Shown here in pieces: positions 13,256 through 50,331 of a stretch of 53,922 bases of DNA. Under the pieces are notes generated by a model, which worked only from the letters and a program-made list of their open reading frames with translations, made no database searches and was not told where the DNA came from. The stretch spans positions 1 through 53,922 of the IMG/VR virus record IMGVR_UViG_3300010354_000116; one strand, written 5' to 3'. Source of the stretch: a virus. Each line of letters starts with the position of its first letter. Position 1 is the stretch's first letter. The position numbers and the translations under genes were made by a program.

Positions 13256-14035
13256 GTGAACTACGAGAACTGCGGGTATGTGTATGCCATAACTAATACC
13301 GTAAATGGCGGTAGCTACATTGGCAGTACCACAAACCTAGCTAGTCGGTGGAAAACGCACAGATACCTTTTACGCAAGGGTGAGCATCACTCCTTTATTT
13401 TACAAAAAGCGTGGGACAAATATGGAGAGGCTTCGTTTTCTTTCGCTCCGATTTTAGTTTGCGCCAAACACATGAGAGGTTTTTACGAAAACGCTCTTAT
13501 TAAACTGGCGCGTTACAACGTGGTAAAGACTGATGTATTTAAAGAAGTATGCGGGGCGAAAATATCCGCAGCGTTGCGTGGGCGAAAAAAGACTGAATCG
13601 CACAGAAAAGCCATTTCTGCCGGTAAAACTGGAGTTGCGATGGGGGACAGTTTTAAGCAAAAAGCTAGACTGCGCCAGTTAGGGGTTAGTATTTCTAGTG
13701 CTACTCGTAGTAGGTTATCGGATAGCCTTAAACAAGCTAGGCACGACGAAAAAGAAGCTAATAGACAGCTGTCGATTCTTGTGTACTCTAAGTTTAAACT
13801 TGGCGACAGTGTGGAGGGTTTATGCAAACTGCACGGAATAACAAGTGCTACTTTCTATAACCATTGCGTCGCCATGAATCTGCCATCGGTCAAACACAAA
13901 GCTATAGAACTTGCCGTGAGTAAAGTTAAATCGTTACTAGAATGTGGAAGTACCTTAACTTCTGCATGTCGAGAGCTTGGTTTAAACCCAAAAACTATGT
14001 CCGCTGTCTTGTTGAGAAGAGCTAAACATGGCTGA
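13256..14035 (+). CDS. GIY-YIG homing endonuclease with NUMOD3-like repeats
   Basis: 259 aa from GTG 13256, SD GAGGGAA. GIY-YIG nuclease residues 1-95: GYVYAI, GGSYIGST, the Arg in NLASRWKTH and the Glu in FYENALIKLA. Then a NUMOD3-like DNA-binding segment (AALRGRKKTESHRKAISAGKTG, about 104-125) and helix-turn-helix-like parts near the end (SVEGLCKLHGITSATFYNH; STLTSACRELGLNPKTMS). The gene is visibly more A+T-rich than its neighbours and separates mini-ORFs from the adaptor gene, so it looks like a free-standing mobile insertion. Its end overlaps the adaptor start by 8 bases. Confidence 0.88.
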   Translation: MNYENCGYVYAITNTVNGGSYIGSTTNLASRWKTHRYLLRKGEHHSFILQKAWDKYGEASFSFAPILVCAKHMRGFYENALIKLARYNVVKTDVFKEVCGAKISAALRGRKKTESHRKAISAGKTGVAMGDSFKQKARLRQLGVSISSATRSRLSDSLKQARHDEKEANRQLSILVYSKFKLGDSVEGLCKLHGITSATFYNHCVAMNLPSVKHKAIELAVSKVKSLLECGSTLTSACRELGLNPKTMSAVLLRRAKHG

Positions 14036-42604: not shown

Positions 42605-42632
42605 AGTGTAGCAAGTAACTTAACAATGTCAA
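42605..42632 (-). promoter_or_regulatory. Sigma70-like promoter for the replication operon
   Basis: Minus strand TTGACA (42632-42627), 16-base spacer, TACACT (42610-42605), about 30 bases ahead of the ATG at 42574. The -35 abuts the helicase stop region. Just beyond the -35, TTGTTAAGT resembles half of the palindromic operator (TTGTTAGGT). Confidence 0.6.
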
Positions 42633-44182
42633 GAAGTTATTTCTTGTTTGTACAGGTCAACTATTTTCTCGTGACTGCTGATGTTAGAGCGCAGTAAAGT
42701 GTAGAGCTTGGCTTCCATCTCACTGCCTCTGATGTGCACAATGGTCATCGGGTTGTGCTGTCCCGGTCGGTCGATGCGAGCATTTGCTTGCAAGTAGGTT
42801 TCTACGCTTGGCACTGGCGAGTACCAAACGATAGTGTTGGCCGCAGTTAGAGTCAACCCGTGCGATGCGGCTTGTGGTTGGATAATGAGCACATGGGGGT
42901 CTGGAACTGTTTGGAACCTGTGGATTATGTCTGCTCGCTTATTCACAGATACTTTGCCAGAAATTATGTCGCACGATATTTTGTGTTTGGTGAGGTATTC
43001 GTACAACAAGTCTATGGTGTGCGTGAAAGGCACGAAGACGAGTACTTTGTGCGAGGACTCCTCAATGACTTCCAACACTACCTGCAGTCTGTTACTTACG
43101 TCGAACTCGATCACTTCCCTTTCGTCGGTGTACACCGCACCACCGGATATTTGCAGTAGCTTGTTGAGGTTGGTCGCAGCGTTGACCGAGGTTACCTGCT
43201 CCCCGTCGGCATGGATGATCATCTGCTTCTTCAGCATCGTGTAGTACTTTTGTTGTTGTGCGGTAAGCGGTGCCTCTCTGTCTACGTGTGTAACTGGTGG
43301 TAGGTCTAGGCACTGGCTTTTTTCAAACCGAATCGCGGGCTGCAGTACTTGGTGGACTATCTTGTCTGCGTTGAGTGTTGGCCGCCAAATATACTGGCTG
43401 ATTTTACGCATTACTTTGTCGCGGAACTGTCCGAAGTATTTCGGGCATTGAGTGGGGTTTACCAGCCTAGCCAAACCAAACGCATCCAGTGGGGATTGTG
43501 CCGCAGGAGTACCTGTAAGCATCCAAAGCCATTTGGCCTGTGCAACTATTTCGTTGAGTACTTTCCACCGAGTTGTGCTTACATTCTTATAAGCAGACGC
43601 TTCGTCAACCACGATCATGTCGAAGCCGCCTTTTAAGATTTCTTCTTTGACGACACCCACCCCGTCGAAGTTGATTATGAGAAACTCCGTACCCGCATTG
43701 ATTATTTTCTTGCGTTGCGCAGACGTACCATAAGCCACCGCGCATCCACGGTGCATAGCAAACGTGAACAAGTCTTGCTGCCATGCGGACTTCATAATCG
43801 ACAACGGGCATATGACAAGCACGCGTTTGATCGCGCCGATACTTAGCAGGTAGTCCGCTGCCCATATGACGGATGCCGTCTTGCCGGTGCCTTGCTCGTT
43901 GAAGCAAAACGCCTTCTTGTGGAGAGTCAGGAACCCAGCGGTTTCTTTCTGGTGTGCGAACGGTTTGTATCTACCAGTCCAGTTGTAATCACGCTGTATC
44001 GTGGAGGGGACTTTTTTTAACCCCATCCCAGCAAGAATCTGAGCGTCCTCAAGCGTCCATTTCACGGCGAGGGTGAACATCCCGTCGTCTTCTTTTACTA
44101 CTTTGAATGTCGCAGACTTTTCTGCCAACAGGTGCGGTTTGCGTGTGCGCAGCACCAAGGCAACGTCGTTTACAATTTCCAT
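42629..44182 (-). CDS. SNF2-family DNA helicase/translocase
   Basis: 517 aa. Motif I NEQGTGKTASVIWAA, Ib LVICPLSIMKSAWQQD, II MIVVDEASAYKN (DEAS), III WLWMLTGTPAAQSPLD; second RecA lobe with VLVFVPFTHTIDLLYEYL, HVLIIQPQAASHGLTLTAAN and VETYLQANARIDRPGQHN (motif VI). Single-domain phage SNF2 proteins are ATP-driven dsDNA translocases often near recombination or replication genes; here it is next to HNH and Cas4-like nuclease genes. Confidence 0.88.
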   Translation of the reverse strand: MEIVNDVALVLRTRKPHLLAEKSATFKVVKEDDGMFTLAVKWTLEDAQILAGMGLKKVPSTIQRDYNWTGRYKPFAHQKETAGFLTLHKKAFCFNEQGTGKTASVIWAADYLLSIGAIKRVLVICPLSIMKSAWQQDLFTFAMHRGCAVAYGTSAQRKKIINAGTEFLIINFDGVGVVKEEILKGGFDMIVVDEASAYKNVSTTRWKVLNEIVAQAKWLWMLTGTPAAQSPLDAFGLARLVNPTQCPKYFGQFRDKVMRKISQYIWRPTLNADKIVHQVLQPAIRFEKSQCLDLPPVTHVDREAPLTAQQQKYYTMLKKQMIIHADGEQVTSVNAATNLNKLLQISGGAVYTDEREVIEFDVSNRLQVVLEVIEESSHKVLVFVPFTHTIDLLYEYLTKHKISCDIISGKVSVNKRADIIHRFQTVPDPHVLIIQPQAASHGLTLTAANTIVWYSPVPSVETYLQANARIDRPGQHNPMTIVHIRGSEMEAKLYTLLRSNISSHEKIVDLYKQEITS

Positions 44183-48033: not shown

Positions 48034-50331
48034 TCACTCACCACCGTAGCTTTTTGCCACTTTACCTTCGCAGTTCAAAGGAAGCGTAAGCGCCCATTGC
48101 GGACGTATCCGCATACAGTTCTCTACGTACTGCAGCCCTTCCTCGGCTTCGTTCTCCGGCACCACGCAGCCAATCGCGTCATGCACCGTCATCACTACCT
48201 TATACTTCTTAGCCACAAGCAACATGTGTTCACCGACTACAATACGCGCCAAGGCTTGGCAGATATTTTCTATATTCTTACCGCCGTATATCTTGTTGGG
48301 TATGGTCGCTCGTCCCTTCTTCATGTCGTAAACAAGCTCTGCGTGCCCCTCGTCGTTCTTAACTTTACGCAAGTTGGGGTACTGGATGTAAAGGCCGTTT
48401 GGCAACCGTATACCTGCCCCACCTTCTACTGATAGCACGCCGTCCAACCCAAGCGGTGCTGTTTTACTTTGCATGAGGGCGAGCAGCGCATCATTTGCTT
48501 GCTTCCATAATTGCGGGATGTTGGGGTAAGTAGCACGGTACACGTGGATAACCCGCTCGCATTCCTCTAACGGCATATCCACACCAAAGTTTTTAAGTTG
48601 TGCTTGGAACTTGGCCGCACCCATCCCATAGCCACAGTTATGGACTATAAGCGGCCCTGCATCCGTCGCAATTGTGTATCTGTTCCTCGGCCCTGCGTAA
48701 GCGATGTCGTAGGTCATCAAGTTCTGTTTGCATAATTTTGACCTTTCGTCTGTTCTTCGCGTTTTCAGAGCGAGTAGCGAACCTGAGATTGCCGGGTTCA
48801 TACCCCCGGTTGTTGTCCCCCTTAACATAGCCTGTGACGGTAAGTTTTCCGCTCCGGTAGCCAGTGCCCGGGAGCGCGTATTTTCGTCGGTTACCAGATA
48901 TTGCCACTCCGTCCACCGGGTCCCGCACAATACGCGGTGATCTGGAGTCAACCAGACGCCGCAACTCTTCCACGTTTCTTTGAAGCCTTTCCTCAGTAAT
49001 CCGCGATGGCATACCCATTCCTCCCCATCCCAAAGTTTGTCGTGTAGGGTCACCGTTTCAATCGGTTTCCACCCCGACTCGCATAGTGTGAGAGTTCCCT
49101 CGGCAATACAACCTAGTATGGTCGTCTTTCCCACAAAGCGTTCGCCTTTGCTAATCTCCTCCTGCGGCTTGCCGTAGATAGCTGAGGCCATGATTTTGTA
49201 CACGTCGTCACCACGAGCAAACGCGTCGACCAGATCATCCTGCTGCGCCAACCATGCCAACACACGCGCTTCAATCTGAGACAAGTCGCAGTCCACAAAC
49301 ATATACCCAGCAGGAGCACGGATGGCATGCTTGAGCGTAGACCCACGTGGTAGGTTCTGCATGTTTATGAGTTCATCCCCGCCCCAGCGACCGGTTCGCG
49401 CAGCGTAGTAACGCAGTGGTATCGGGAGTGCTCCCCGCTGAGCGATCTGTATGAATCGCTCCGTTCTTGTTTCTTCCAGCGTAGACTTAACACCCAACCG
49501 AGCAGCCGCCAGTGCTTGCACGTATTCGTTCTCATGCTCCAACAAGGCGCGGAACCCTTCGTCTGTCTTAGCCAGTGCATAAGTTTGCTTGCCAGTAGTC
49601 AGACTGGTTTTCATCGGCGGCTCTACTGCGTATTGCCGTAGTAGTTGTGCGAACTGCGGGTTACTGCGCAGCATCTTGGGGTCTTGCGTCACTTTTTGTG
49701 TGAGTTCTTCCCGTCTGGTGCGAACAGCCTGCAAGTGTTGCTGCAGCATCGGTATATCCAGCTCAAGCACAGGCTCTGTAAACATGCGGATAGTGAGGTC
49801 GATCAAGCTCAACTCAAACGCAGGGAAACGGTGCAGCAACCGTGCGAACAACTTGGAGGTCAGCACCACGTCGTTGCAGCAATATTCCCCGTATGCCTGT
49901 AGCTGTTGTGGGGTGAAGTCCAGTCGGCGTTTGCCCAACGCATCGAGCACCTCAGTGCCTTTGACGCCCAAGCCGTAGTGCTCGCTCAACGCAGCCAGTG
50001 ACCCACCCACTTCCGTTGCGTGTTTTGCACGTGCCATAGACAGGGTGTCTGCGATCTTGTGCGGGCGTATACCAAAACACCAAGACAGAATTGCCATATC
50101 AAACTTGGCATTGTGAGCCACTGCAATGCTGTCTTCCCAGTCAAATGTGCGTAGGAACGCAGCCGTCGCATCGTGCGTCCCGCTAAACCACACCGGGGTT
50201 TCCTTGTTGCGTTGCACCGCTACGCCTATCACTTCAAAGCGCGGGTCTCGTATGTACTCCTCGGTGGTCAGTTTGCTGAACCCAAACTCTTTGGAGTAGT
50301 ACGTCTCAAAGTCTACGTACAGAATGTTCAC
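48034..50331 (-). CDS. polA: DNA polymerase I-type replicase containing a mini-intein
   Basis: 765 aa, 607 without the intein. N-terminal 3'-5' exonuclease: LYVDFETYY (D7, E9), VAHNAKFD (D78), YCCNDVVL (D154). Polymerase: RTGRWGGDELINMQNLPRG, motif A FVDCDLSQIEARVLAW (D349), fingers helix KTTILG//CGYGMGAAKF, motif C VMTVHDAIG (H717, D718). The intein (residues 408-565) splits the fingers motif after G407. Splicing must occur before the polymerase is active. Neighbour genes: a 95-aa conserved protein overlapping its start and the small-gene array behind it. Confidence 0.92.
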   Translation of the reverse strand: MNILYVDFETYYSKEFGFSKLTTEEYIRDPRFEVIGVAVQRNKETPVWFSGTHDATAAFLRTFDWEDSIAVAHNAKFDMAILSWCFGIRPHKIADTLSMARAKHATEVGGSLAALSEHYGLGVKGTEVLDALGKRRLDFTPQQLQAYGEYCCNDVVLTSKLFARLLHRFPAFELSLIDLTIRMFTEPVLELDIPMLQQHLQAVRTRREELTQKVTQDPKMLRSNPQFAQLLRQYAVEPPMKTSLTTGKQTYALAKTDEGFRALLEHENEYVQALAAARLGVKSTLEETRTERFIQIAQRGALPIPLRYYAARTGRWGGDELINMQNLPRGSTLKHAIRAPAGYMFVDCDLSQIEARVLAWLAQQDDLVDAFARGDDVYKIMASAIYGKPQEEISKGERFVGKTTILGCIAEGTLTLCESGWKPIETVTLHDKLWDGEEWVCHRGLLRKGFKETWKSCGVWLTPDHRVLCGTRWTEWQYLVTDENTRSRALATGAENLPSQAMLRGTTTGGMNPAISGSLLALKTRRTDERSKLCKQNLMTYDIAYAGPRNRYTIATDAGPLIVHNCGYGMGAAKFQAQLKNFGVDMPLEECERVIHVYRATYPNIPQLWKQANDALLALMQSKTAPLGLDGVLSVEGGAGIRLPNGLYIQYPNLRKVKNDEGHAELVYDMKKGRATIPNKIYGGKNIENICQALARIVVGEHMLLVAKKYKVVMTVHDAIGCVVPENEAEEGLQYVENCMRIRPQWALTLPLNCEGKVAKSYGGE
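48637..49110 (-). other. Intein in DNA polymerase, 158 aa
   Basis: Starts CIAEGTLTLCESGWKPIETV (block A, Cys1), block B GVWLTPDHRVLC with T-x-x-H, and ends with block F YDIAYAGPRNRYTIATDAG and block G LIVHN, followed by Cys+1 of the extein. All splicing residues (C1, TxxH, HN, C+1) are present, so it should splice. There is no in-frame endonuclease; a second ORF in another frame fills most of the length. Confidence 0.9.
48638..49012 (-). CDS. HNH-endonuclease-like ORF nested out of frame inside the intein, core deleted
   Basis: 124 codons, ATG 49012 with GGGGAGG (49020-49026) 7 bases upstream, stop TAA at 48640-48638 formed by the last two intein codons. Residues 43-64 (RKYALPGTGYRSGKLTVTGY) resemble the N-terminal region, and 66-91 (DNNRGYEPGNLRFATRSENA and following KNRRK) the C-terminal HNH region, of a phage HNH-protein family as I recall it; the zinc-finger and HNH catalytic core that should lie between is absent, with the junction near 48817. 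Ends in a helix (LDDLRHRLRRAEEQ) and CDGC. Probably inactive as a nuclease. May be an expressed overlapping gene or a frame-shifted relic. Confidence 0.55.
   Translation of the reverse strand: MPSRITEERLQRNVEELRRLVDSRSPRIVRDPVDGVAISGNRRKYALPGTGYRSGKLTVTGYVKGDNNRGYEPGNLRFATRSENAKNRRKVKIMQTELDDLRHRLRRAEEQIHNCDGCRAAYSP

Follow-up and report, generated by a model that had tools for sequence, protein, structure and literature searches.

How can one short stretch of phage DNA hold two protein-coding frames on the same strand, one reading as an intein and the other as the two ends of an HNH endonuclease? The question is raised by a 53.9-kb IMG/VR-type virus record, analysed here at its full length (the window; 53,922 nucleotides), in which the gene for a family-A DNA polymerase (PolA) is interrupted by an intein that shares its bases with a second, nested open reading frame (ORF). 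The first-pass annotation, which could see no more than the decayed extreme of a far wider arrangement, offered two explanations: a decaying overlapped homing gene, or a remnant retained for DNA binding or a maturase-like role. What the window carries is a degenerate form of an architecture that is widespread: a mobile intein with an overprinted homing endonuclease gene. The element is very probably a class-1 phage intein in which the endonuclease gene is overprinted and not fused in frame. The evidence consists of its anatomy, the two open frames, selection acting on both of them, intein-type sequence with a matching predicted fold, empty alleles of the insertion site, and repeated deletions of the endonuclease core.

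The PolA mini-intein

The host gene, a PolA precursor of 765 codons on the minus strand (48034–50331), matches PF00476 DNA_pol_A (E = 1.6e-29), the 3'-5' exonuclease family PF01612 and phrog_17. Its N-extein (49111–50331, minus strand) ends in ...RFVGKTTILG, and its C-extein (48034–48636, minus strand) begins with Cys+1 in CGYGMG...; the insertion point thus lies between ...KTTILG and CGYGMG..., and 76 of the 80 closest PolA relatives run uninterrupted across this exact site. The intein between the exteins (48637–49110, minus strand) is 158 residues long and, as had been claimed for it, retains all splicing residues: Cys1, the TPDH of block B, Asp135, the terminal His-Asn and Cys+1. In an alignment of 28 inteins, C1, T55xxH58, D135, H157 and N158 are invariant, while the +1 residue is Cys at most loci and Ser at a few. 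One relative, L107, ends its intein in PLIVQT/CGYGMG, with Gln-Thr in place of the terminal His-Asn, and may be a splicing-dead intein or an assembly error.

The intein-family profile matches the Mtu RecA mini-intein in the PDB (3ifj, E = 4.7e-5). AlphaFold predicts the window intein with a pLDDT (predicted local distance difference test) score above 93 at residues 1–90 and 131–158, separated by a disordered loop at residues 98–124 with a pLDDT of about 35. This loop is encoded at 48739–48819 on the minus strand; in full-length relatives the sole apparent task of this region in the intein frame is to remain open, as judged from the codon-position rates described below. When the predicted model is used as a Foldseek query, the top PDB matches are solved inteins, with a probability of 1.00. 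Both the sequence and the HINT fold of the predicted model are those expected of class 1, and the element is, on these grounds, a class-1 mini-intein. Pfam and NCBIfam searches of the window detected neither the intein nor an HNH domain; PHROGs, PDB profiles and structure detect them.

The nested HNH reading frame

The nested ORF (48638–49012, minus strand) comprises 124 codons and a TAA, in a frame one base earlier than that of the intein. It begins with an ATG at 49012, and a Shine-Dalgarno-like GGGGAGG (49020–49026, minus strand) lies 7 nucleotides before this ATG, within the intein's conserved WDGEEWV codons, and is conserved in relatives. Its stop (48640–48638) is drawn from caTAAc, the His-Asn codons that end the intein. 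The start, the ribosome-binding site and the borrowed stop are thus as first described.

A profile comparison of the 124-residue product with the PHROG HNH families supports the proposed likeness, giving phrog_374 with E = 4e-6; full nested proteins from relatives score far better against the PHROG HNH profile (L003, E = 4e-32; L062, 7e-59; L307, 4e-23). Only viral HNH models are matched by the HNH profile, and no useful PDB relative was found by sequence or by fold, all fold matches having E > 0.5. The N-terminal part of the frame (48819–49012, minus strand), corresponding to residues 1 to about 65 of the full protein, gives tblastn matches in L003, L005 and other loci, in the corresponding alternative frame. 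The C-terminal part (48638–48818, minus strand), which contains NNRGYEPGNLRFATRSENAKNRR... and a coiled tail, is 83% identical to L003 in the same frame and also belongs to phrog_374. The likeness is not a chance one, because in 49 related inteins, found by intein sequence alone, each half has its match in that same frame.

The missing middle can be placed by comparison with L003, the nearest full relative, which is 87% identical to the window in the splicing blocks. Pairwise alignment of its 849-nucleotide intein with the 474 nucleotides of the window leaves 375 nucleotides (125 codons) of HNH core missing, with a junction at about 48818 (48817–48819), where the two ends had been thought to be joined directly. 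The deletion removes residues ~63–191 and with them most of the family's invariant positions: the zinc-type cysteines C77, C79, C99 and C102, H126, R127, the YGGRGI block, D188 and R189, as well as the first half of the DRIDN..YEPGN motif. No complete HNH catalytic core is left in the window copy, and the nested ORF is, judged by its sequence, a disrupted phrog_374 HNH gene.

Complete relatives with two open frames

Loci of the window's lineage (family A) were gathered by three routes: a scan with the intein only, a scan with the HNH profile, and a scan with polA only. The intein-only scan gave 56 loci, 49 with both intein ends, and all 49 are free of stops in the intein frame. In 45 of these an HNH ORF of 241–288 codons is present in the same relative frame as in the window; the other four are L001, L002 and L036, which are shortened, and L027, which is of full length but whose HNH frame alone is cut short by a premature stop. 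At the TILG/CGYGMG site, then, longer PolA inteins do contain the whole HNH ORF, in the alternative frame used in the window, as the idea of a decaying overlapped homing gene had anticipated, and related inteins with a nested frame full of stops are not what was found. With the HNH profile, 75 of 80 loci proved to be nested, out of frame, in a larger open ORF, mostly of 600–1300 residues, with zero stops, while the third frame of the same DNA carries 4–37. The polA-only search yielded three intein-bearing alleles, all with both frames. Across all family-A inteins the intein frame is open in 124 of 124 and a full HNH ORF is also present in 119.

Nearly all family-A hosts are PolA genes, interrupted at ILG/CGYGMG, GK/CxLGLGY, EIS/CQSMTRD or CEN/CCQAVARD; the host of L135 is a SNF2-type helicase by its sequence motifs. 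In L027 and L033 (2718–3531) another intein-like N block with an HNH fragment lies upstream of the PolA intein, at a distance of about 1 kb, and may represent a second element.

The uninterrupted polymerase frame bears on two other accounts of the insert. Under the first, it would be a group I intron that splices itself and encodes an HNH enzyme. Genes for such enzymes occur commonly in phage introns, and the Sodalis phage SO-1 record labels its nested ORF, gp39, a 'type I self-splicing intron'. However, the polymerase frame is open through the insert in all 124 copies, the intein splicing residues are invariant and the predicted fold is HINT; an Rfam search of the window region and six full-length loci, run without a positive control, also gave no match at E 0.1–1. 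An intron is on this evidence highly improbable. The second account holds that the polymerase was made as two proteins joined by trans-splicing, with a free-standing endonuclease gene between the halves of a split ('fractured') intein, and that the copy in the window arose by re-fusion. Dassa and colleagues reportedly described, in 2009, fractured genes of this kind in phage metagenomes, in which an endonuclease lies between the two parts of a split intein. A split ancestor is possible, but no intermediate was found, and in all 124 copies the two halves are joined without a stop. The sole interrupted case, L124, is near-identical to uninterrupted records, and a split origin of the window form seems very unlikely. 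L124 itself (IMGVR_UViG_638275545) is an old Jersey-type sequence whose polymerase frame is interrupted upstream of the HNH, probably by a sequencing error; in the nearly identical records the polymerase frame is open.

Selection on both frames

The suggestion that two full reading frames share one mobile element is borne out by codon-level comparison of the relatives. When synonymous codons were shuffled within each HNH gene (75 clusters), 357 stops were expected in the intein frame and none is observed. The kind of substitution changes along the element, switching from an intein pattern to an HNH pattern. In the intein N-block, ahead of the HNH start, intein third positions are the most variable (0.210 per codon vs 0.068 and 0.039). 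Over HNH residues 1–60, where the sequence is needed by both proteins, both frames are constrained. In the HNH core it is the HNH third positions that vary most (0.177 vs 0.059 and 0.029), and each such change alters an intein residue. The intein frame there therefore needs little beyond staying open, while the HNH protein is under selection at the protein level.

The start of the nested ORF shows the same double use. The Val codon of the WVC motif is GTA, the sole Val codon that creates the nested ATG, in 28 of 30 sequences, against an extein background of 16.5% (P = 4e-20). In the other start class, 41 of 45 sequences have A as the last base of the codon preceding Trp (P = 7e-28). The representatives are 85% clusters, related and not independent, and these P values are optimistic.

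These patterns speak to the possibility that the overlap is a by-product of chance, the element being a frame-shifted fused or free-standing HNH gene whose alternative frame is open by an accident of composition. Long alternative ORFs are often found in G+C-rich phage DNA. Yet the absence of stops against 357 expected, the purifying pattern in the HNH frame, the conserved start signals and the stops in the third frame all argue against an accident, as do free-standing homologues, in which alternative frames are closed: in the set examined for family B, a second lineage described below, 0 of 50 have either alternative frame open, and in a third HNH set 48 of 49 are not overprinted, the remaining one having a spanning alternative frame and no intein. 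Chance is accordingly given almost no weight. One locus with an alternative ORF across an HNH, L267, was considered as an overprinted intein and rejected, since it lacks intein motifs.

The start signals also bear on how the HNH protein would be made. It could arise by −1 ribosomal frameshifting off the intein frame, as a fusion of the N-terminal intein half to HNH; the family-A HNH frame is the −1 frame and is open back to the intein start in several loci. Many loci, however, have a stop just a few codons ahead of the HNH start, the start-making synonyms and the Shine-Dalgarno are conserved, and families B and C use the other frame. Frameshifting is thus unlikely, and the nested endonuclease is probably translated by internal initiation, as far as its sequence signals indicate.

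Proposed mechanism, mobility and decay

In complete copies, a ribosome translating polA would read through about 285 intein codons, and the intein would then be excised by its HINT halves, an N-terminal one of about 90 residues and a C-terminal one of about 35. The ~130–150 residues looped out between them would be nothing other than the endonuclease gene read out of phase. The endonuclease itself would come from a second ribosome that initiates within the intein, using the nested ORF's own Shine-Dalgarno and start codon, and yields a separate HNH protein of ~210–260 residues. This enzyme may cut intein-free polA alleles, with repair from an intein-bearing copy spreading the element. Overprinting should also slow the decay of the endonuclease, because any frameshift would ruin the polymerase as well. 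In the window, an in-phase deletion of 375 nucleotides would have taken the endonuclease core and left the polymerase/intein frame intact, the product being a mini-intein and two joined endonuclease ends presumably unable to cut.

Empty and occupied alleles are both found. Among the closest PolA relatives, the +1 residue at the uninterrupted site is Ala (32), Ser (20), Cys (13) or Leu (11), and the three occupied polA alleles have Cys+1 and a full overprinted intein. That the empty alleles (within L328–L407) mostly have Ala, Ser or Leu where occupied ones have Cys suggests that Cys+1 arrives together with the intein, by co-conversion. Eleven apparent inteins among the PolA relatives were discarded as exonuclease motifs (LAHNT.FDGAI).

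Loss of the core has occurred repeatedly. Four core-deleted copies (that of the window, L001, L002 and L036) have independent origins, and the intein frame is kept in all of them. The nested ends stay in phase because deletions must be multiples of three to preserve the polymerase; an open remnant is the automatic outcome of such a deletion, and its presence in the window gives no indication that a function has been kept. The proposal of a retained DNA-binding or maturase-like remnant accordingly finds no support, and the decaying homing gene is the alternative that stands. A more general form of the proposal, in which the 124-residue remnant still serves in DNA binding or regulation, could appeal to its retained start signals and conserved end residues. 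Against it stand the automatic preservation of the frame, the other core-deleted copies, which end at points different from the window's, and the nested frame of L002, which is already broken; such a role is improbable.

Certain points weigh against the overprinted-intein reading as a whole. Besides the relatedness of the clusters, the Shine-Dalgarno is weaker in a sizeable part of the family, including the Jersey-type and APSE-type copies, and some copies begin the nested ORF at GTG. Splicing, internal initiation, cleavage and homing are argued from homology and selection, and the window's remnant, represented by a single copy of this deletion, could have a role after all.

Elsewhere in the window, a 259-residue ORF (13256–14035, plus strand) has a start resembling that of a GIY-YIG homing endonuclease (YVYAITNTVNGGSYIGSTTNLASRWKTHR) and, free-standing among the virion genes, may be a member of that kind.

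Further lineages

The arrangement extends beyond family A. Family B includes the PolA inteins of Caulobacter phage GB2A and APSE-1/2, at a different site (SGKL/C...HN/CEN); their HNH is not that of family A and uses the other alternative frame. This family has 17 loci in IMG/VR, two of which (L160 and L161) sit in SNF2-type helicase genes. A third lineage (C), from bacterial genomes, mainly of gut Clostridia, occupies the site KGK.AELA/C...LVHN/CGYGGS, also in the second alternative frame, and its HNH shows 62–76% identity to PolA genes of Streptococcus and Gardnerella phages. Shuffling of synonymous codons predicts 121 and 185 stops in these two further lineages, and none is seen in either; the intein-to-HNH switch of codon-position rates is repeated in both. 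The nested proteins of all three lineages are phrog_374 / phrog_3377 HNH proteins. A tree of the splicing domains requires at least 3 changes of lineage or frame label, 2 of them forced by well-supported branches, in a tree with few columns and many open forks.

On balance, overprinted-endonuclease inteins appear to be a separate, undescribed mobile-intein architecture beside full-length, mini and split inteins, one that arose at least twice and probably three times, in both same-strand alternative frames; it would be widespread in phage PolA and present in SNF2-type helicase genes, with internal initiation and an endonuclease gene shielded from frameshift decay.

The window has a SNF2-type helicase gene of its own (42629–44182, minus strand), in which the stretch LLQIS/GGAVYTDEREVIEFD is the empty form of the site occupied in L160 and L161 by a family-B overprinted intein. 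The loci L306–L325 (GTDB genomes), L409 and L410 comprise overprinted PolA inteins of gut Clostridia, among them the cultured strains Allobaculum mucilyticum and Eubacterium plexicaudatum, and matching HNH frames in Streptococcus and Gardnerella phages, in whose records the DNA polymerase alone is annotated.

Significance and comparison with known systems

In cellular and double-stranded DNA phage genomes it is rare for two conserved protein genes to overlap fully and at length on one strand. Here a full overlap recurs in scores of phages, the labour being clearly divided along the sequence, which makes the rates of dual-frame evolution measurable, and full copies exist in cultured phages. The arrangement offers an intein another route to carry a homing endonuclease without fusion, and constitutes a natural genetic entanglement, in which an essential gene keeps the frame of a selfish gene intact. 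It also explains the odd middles of many annotated 'intein-containing DNA polymerases' in Jerseyvirus, APSE, Caulobacter and Streptococcus phages, and brings to light hidden endonucleases that annotation skips. Some nested ORFs are already in GenBank as separate or hypothetical genes—APSE-1 P46, Sodalis phage SO-1 gp39 and Salmonella phage LPSE1 LPSE_00001—in records that do not link them to an overprinted intein; most other records seen annotate the polymerase alone, some as 'intein-containing'.

The closest published case in the literature searched is the ShiLan insertion, although an earlier description of overprinted inteins may exist. The ShiLan domain is an in-frame insert in a phage gene that hides an out-of-frame HNH endonuclease (Arsenault, Gosselin and Gogarten 2025, PMC11855218). 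Its host is a non-essential methylase and its product has 195 residues; the authors find no intein motifs, splicing domain or Shine-Dalgarno, and conclude that it is neither intein nor intron (PMC11855218). The ShiLan and PolA inserts are alike in a stop-free host frame with an out-of-frame HNH gene, a sporadic distribution and a TAA stop within the insert's final bases. They differ in that the PolA insert does have a host-frame splicing domain, its host-frame product being a canonical intein, in conserved internal start signals, and in the three lineages, two alternative frames and quantified dual selection described here.

Full-length mobile inteins of the PI-SceI type or with an in-frame HNH likewise combine HINT and a homing-type endonuclease in one element at a conserved site in a replication gene, whereas here the endonuclease has a gene to itself, which shares the intein's bases but is read in another frame, and it does not belong to the intein polypeptide. 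Split inteins with free-standing endonucleases also have a separate endonuclease gene between intein halves in phage replication genes, but the PolA intein is continuous and its endonuclease gene overlaps the halves as well as the loop. Free-standing phrog_374 / phrog_3377 HNH genes belong to the same families, and the members tested leave the alternative frame closed. The architecture is a variant of the mobile intein, and as far as could be found a new one.
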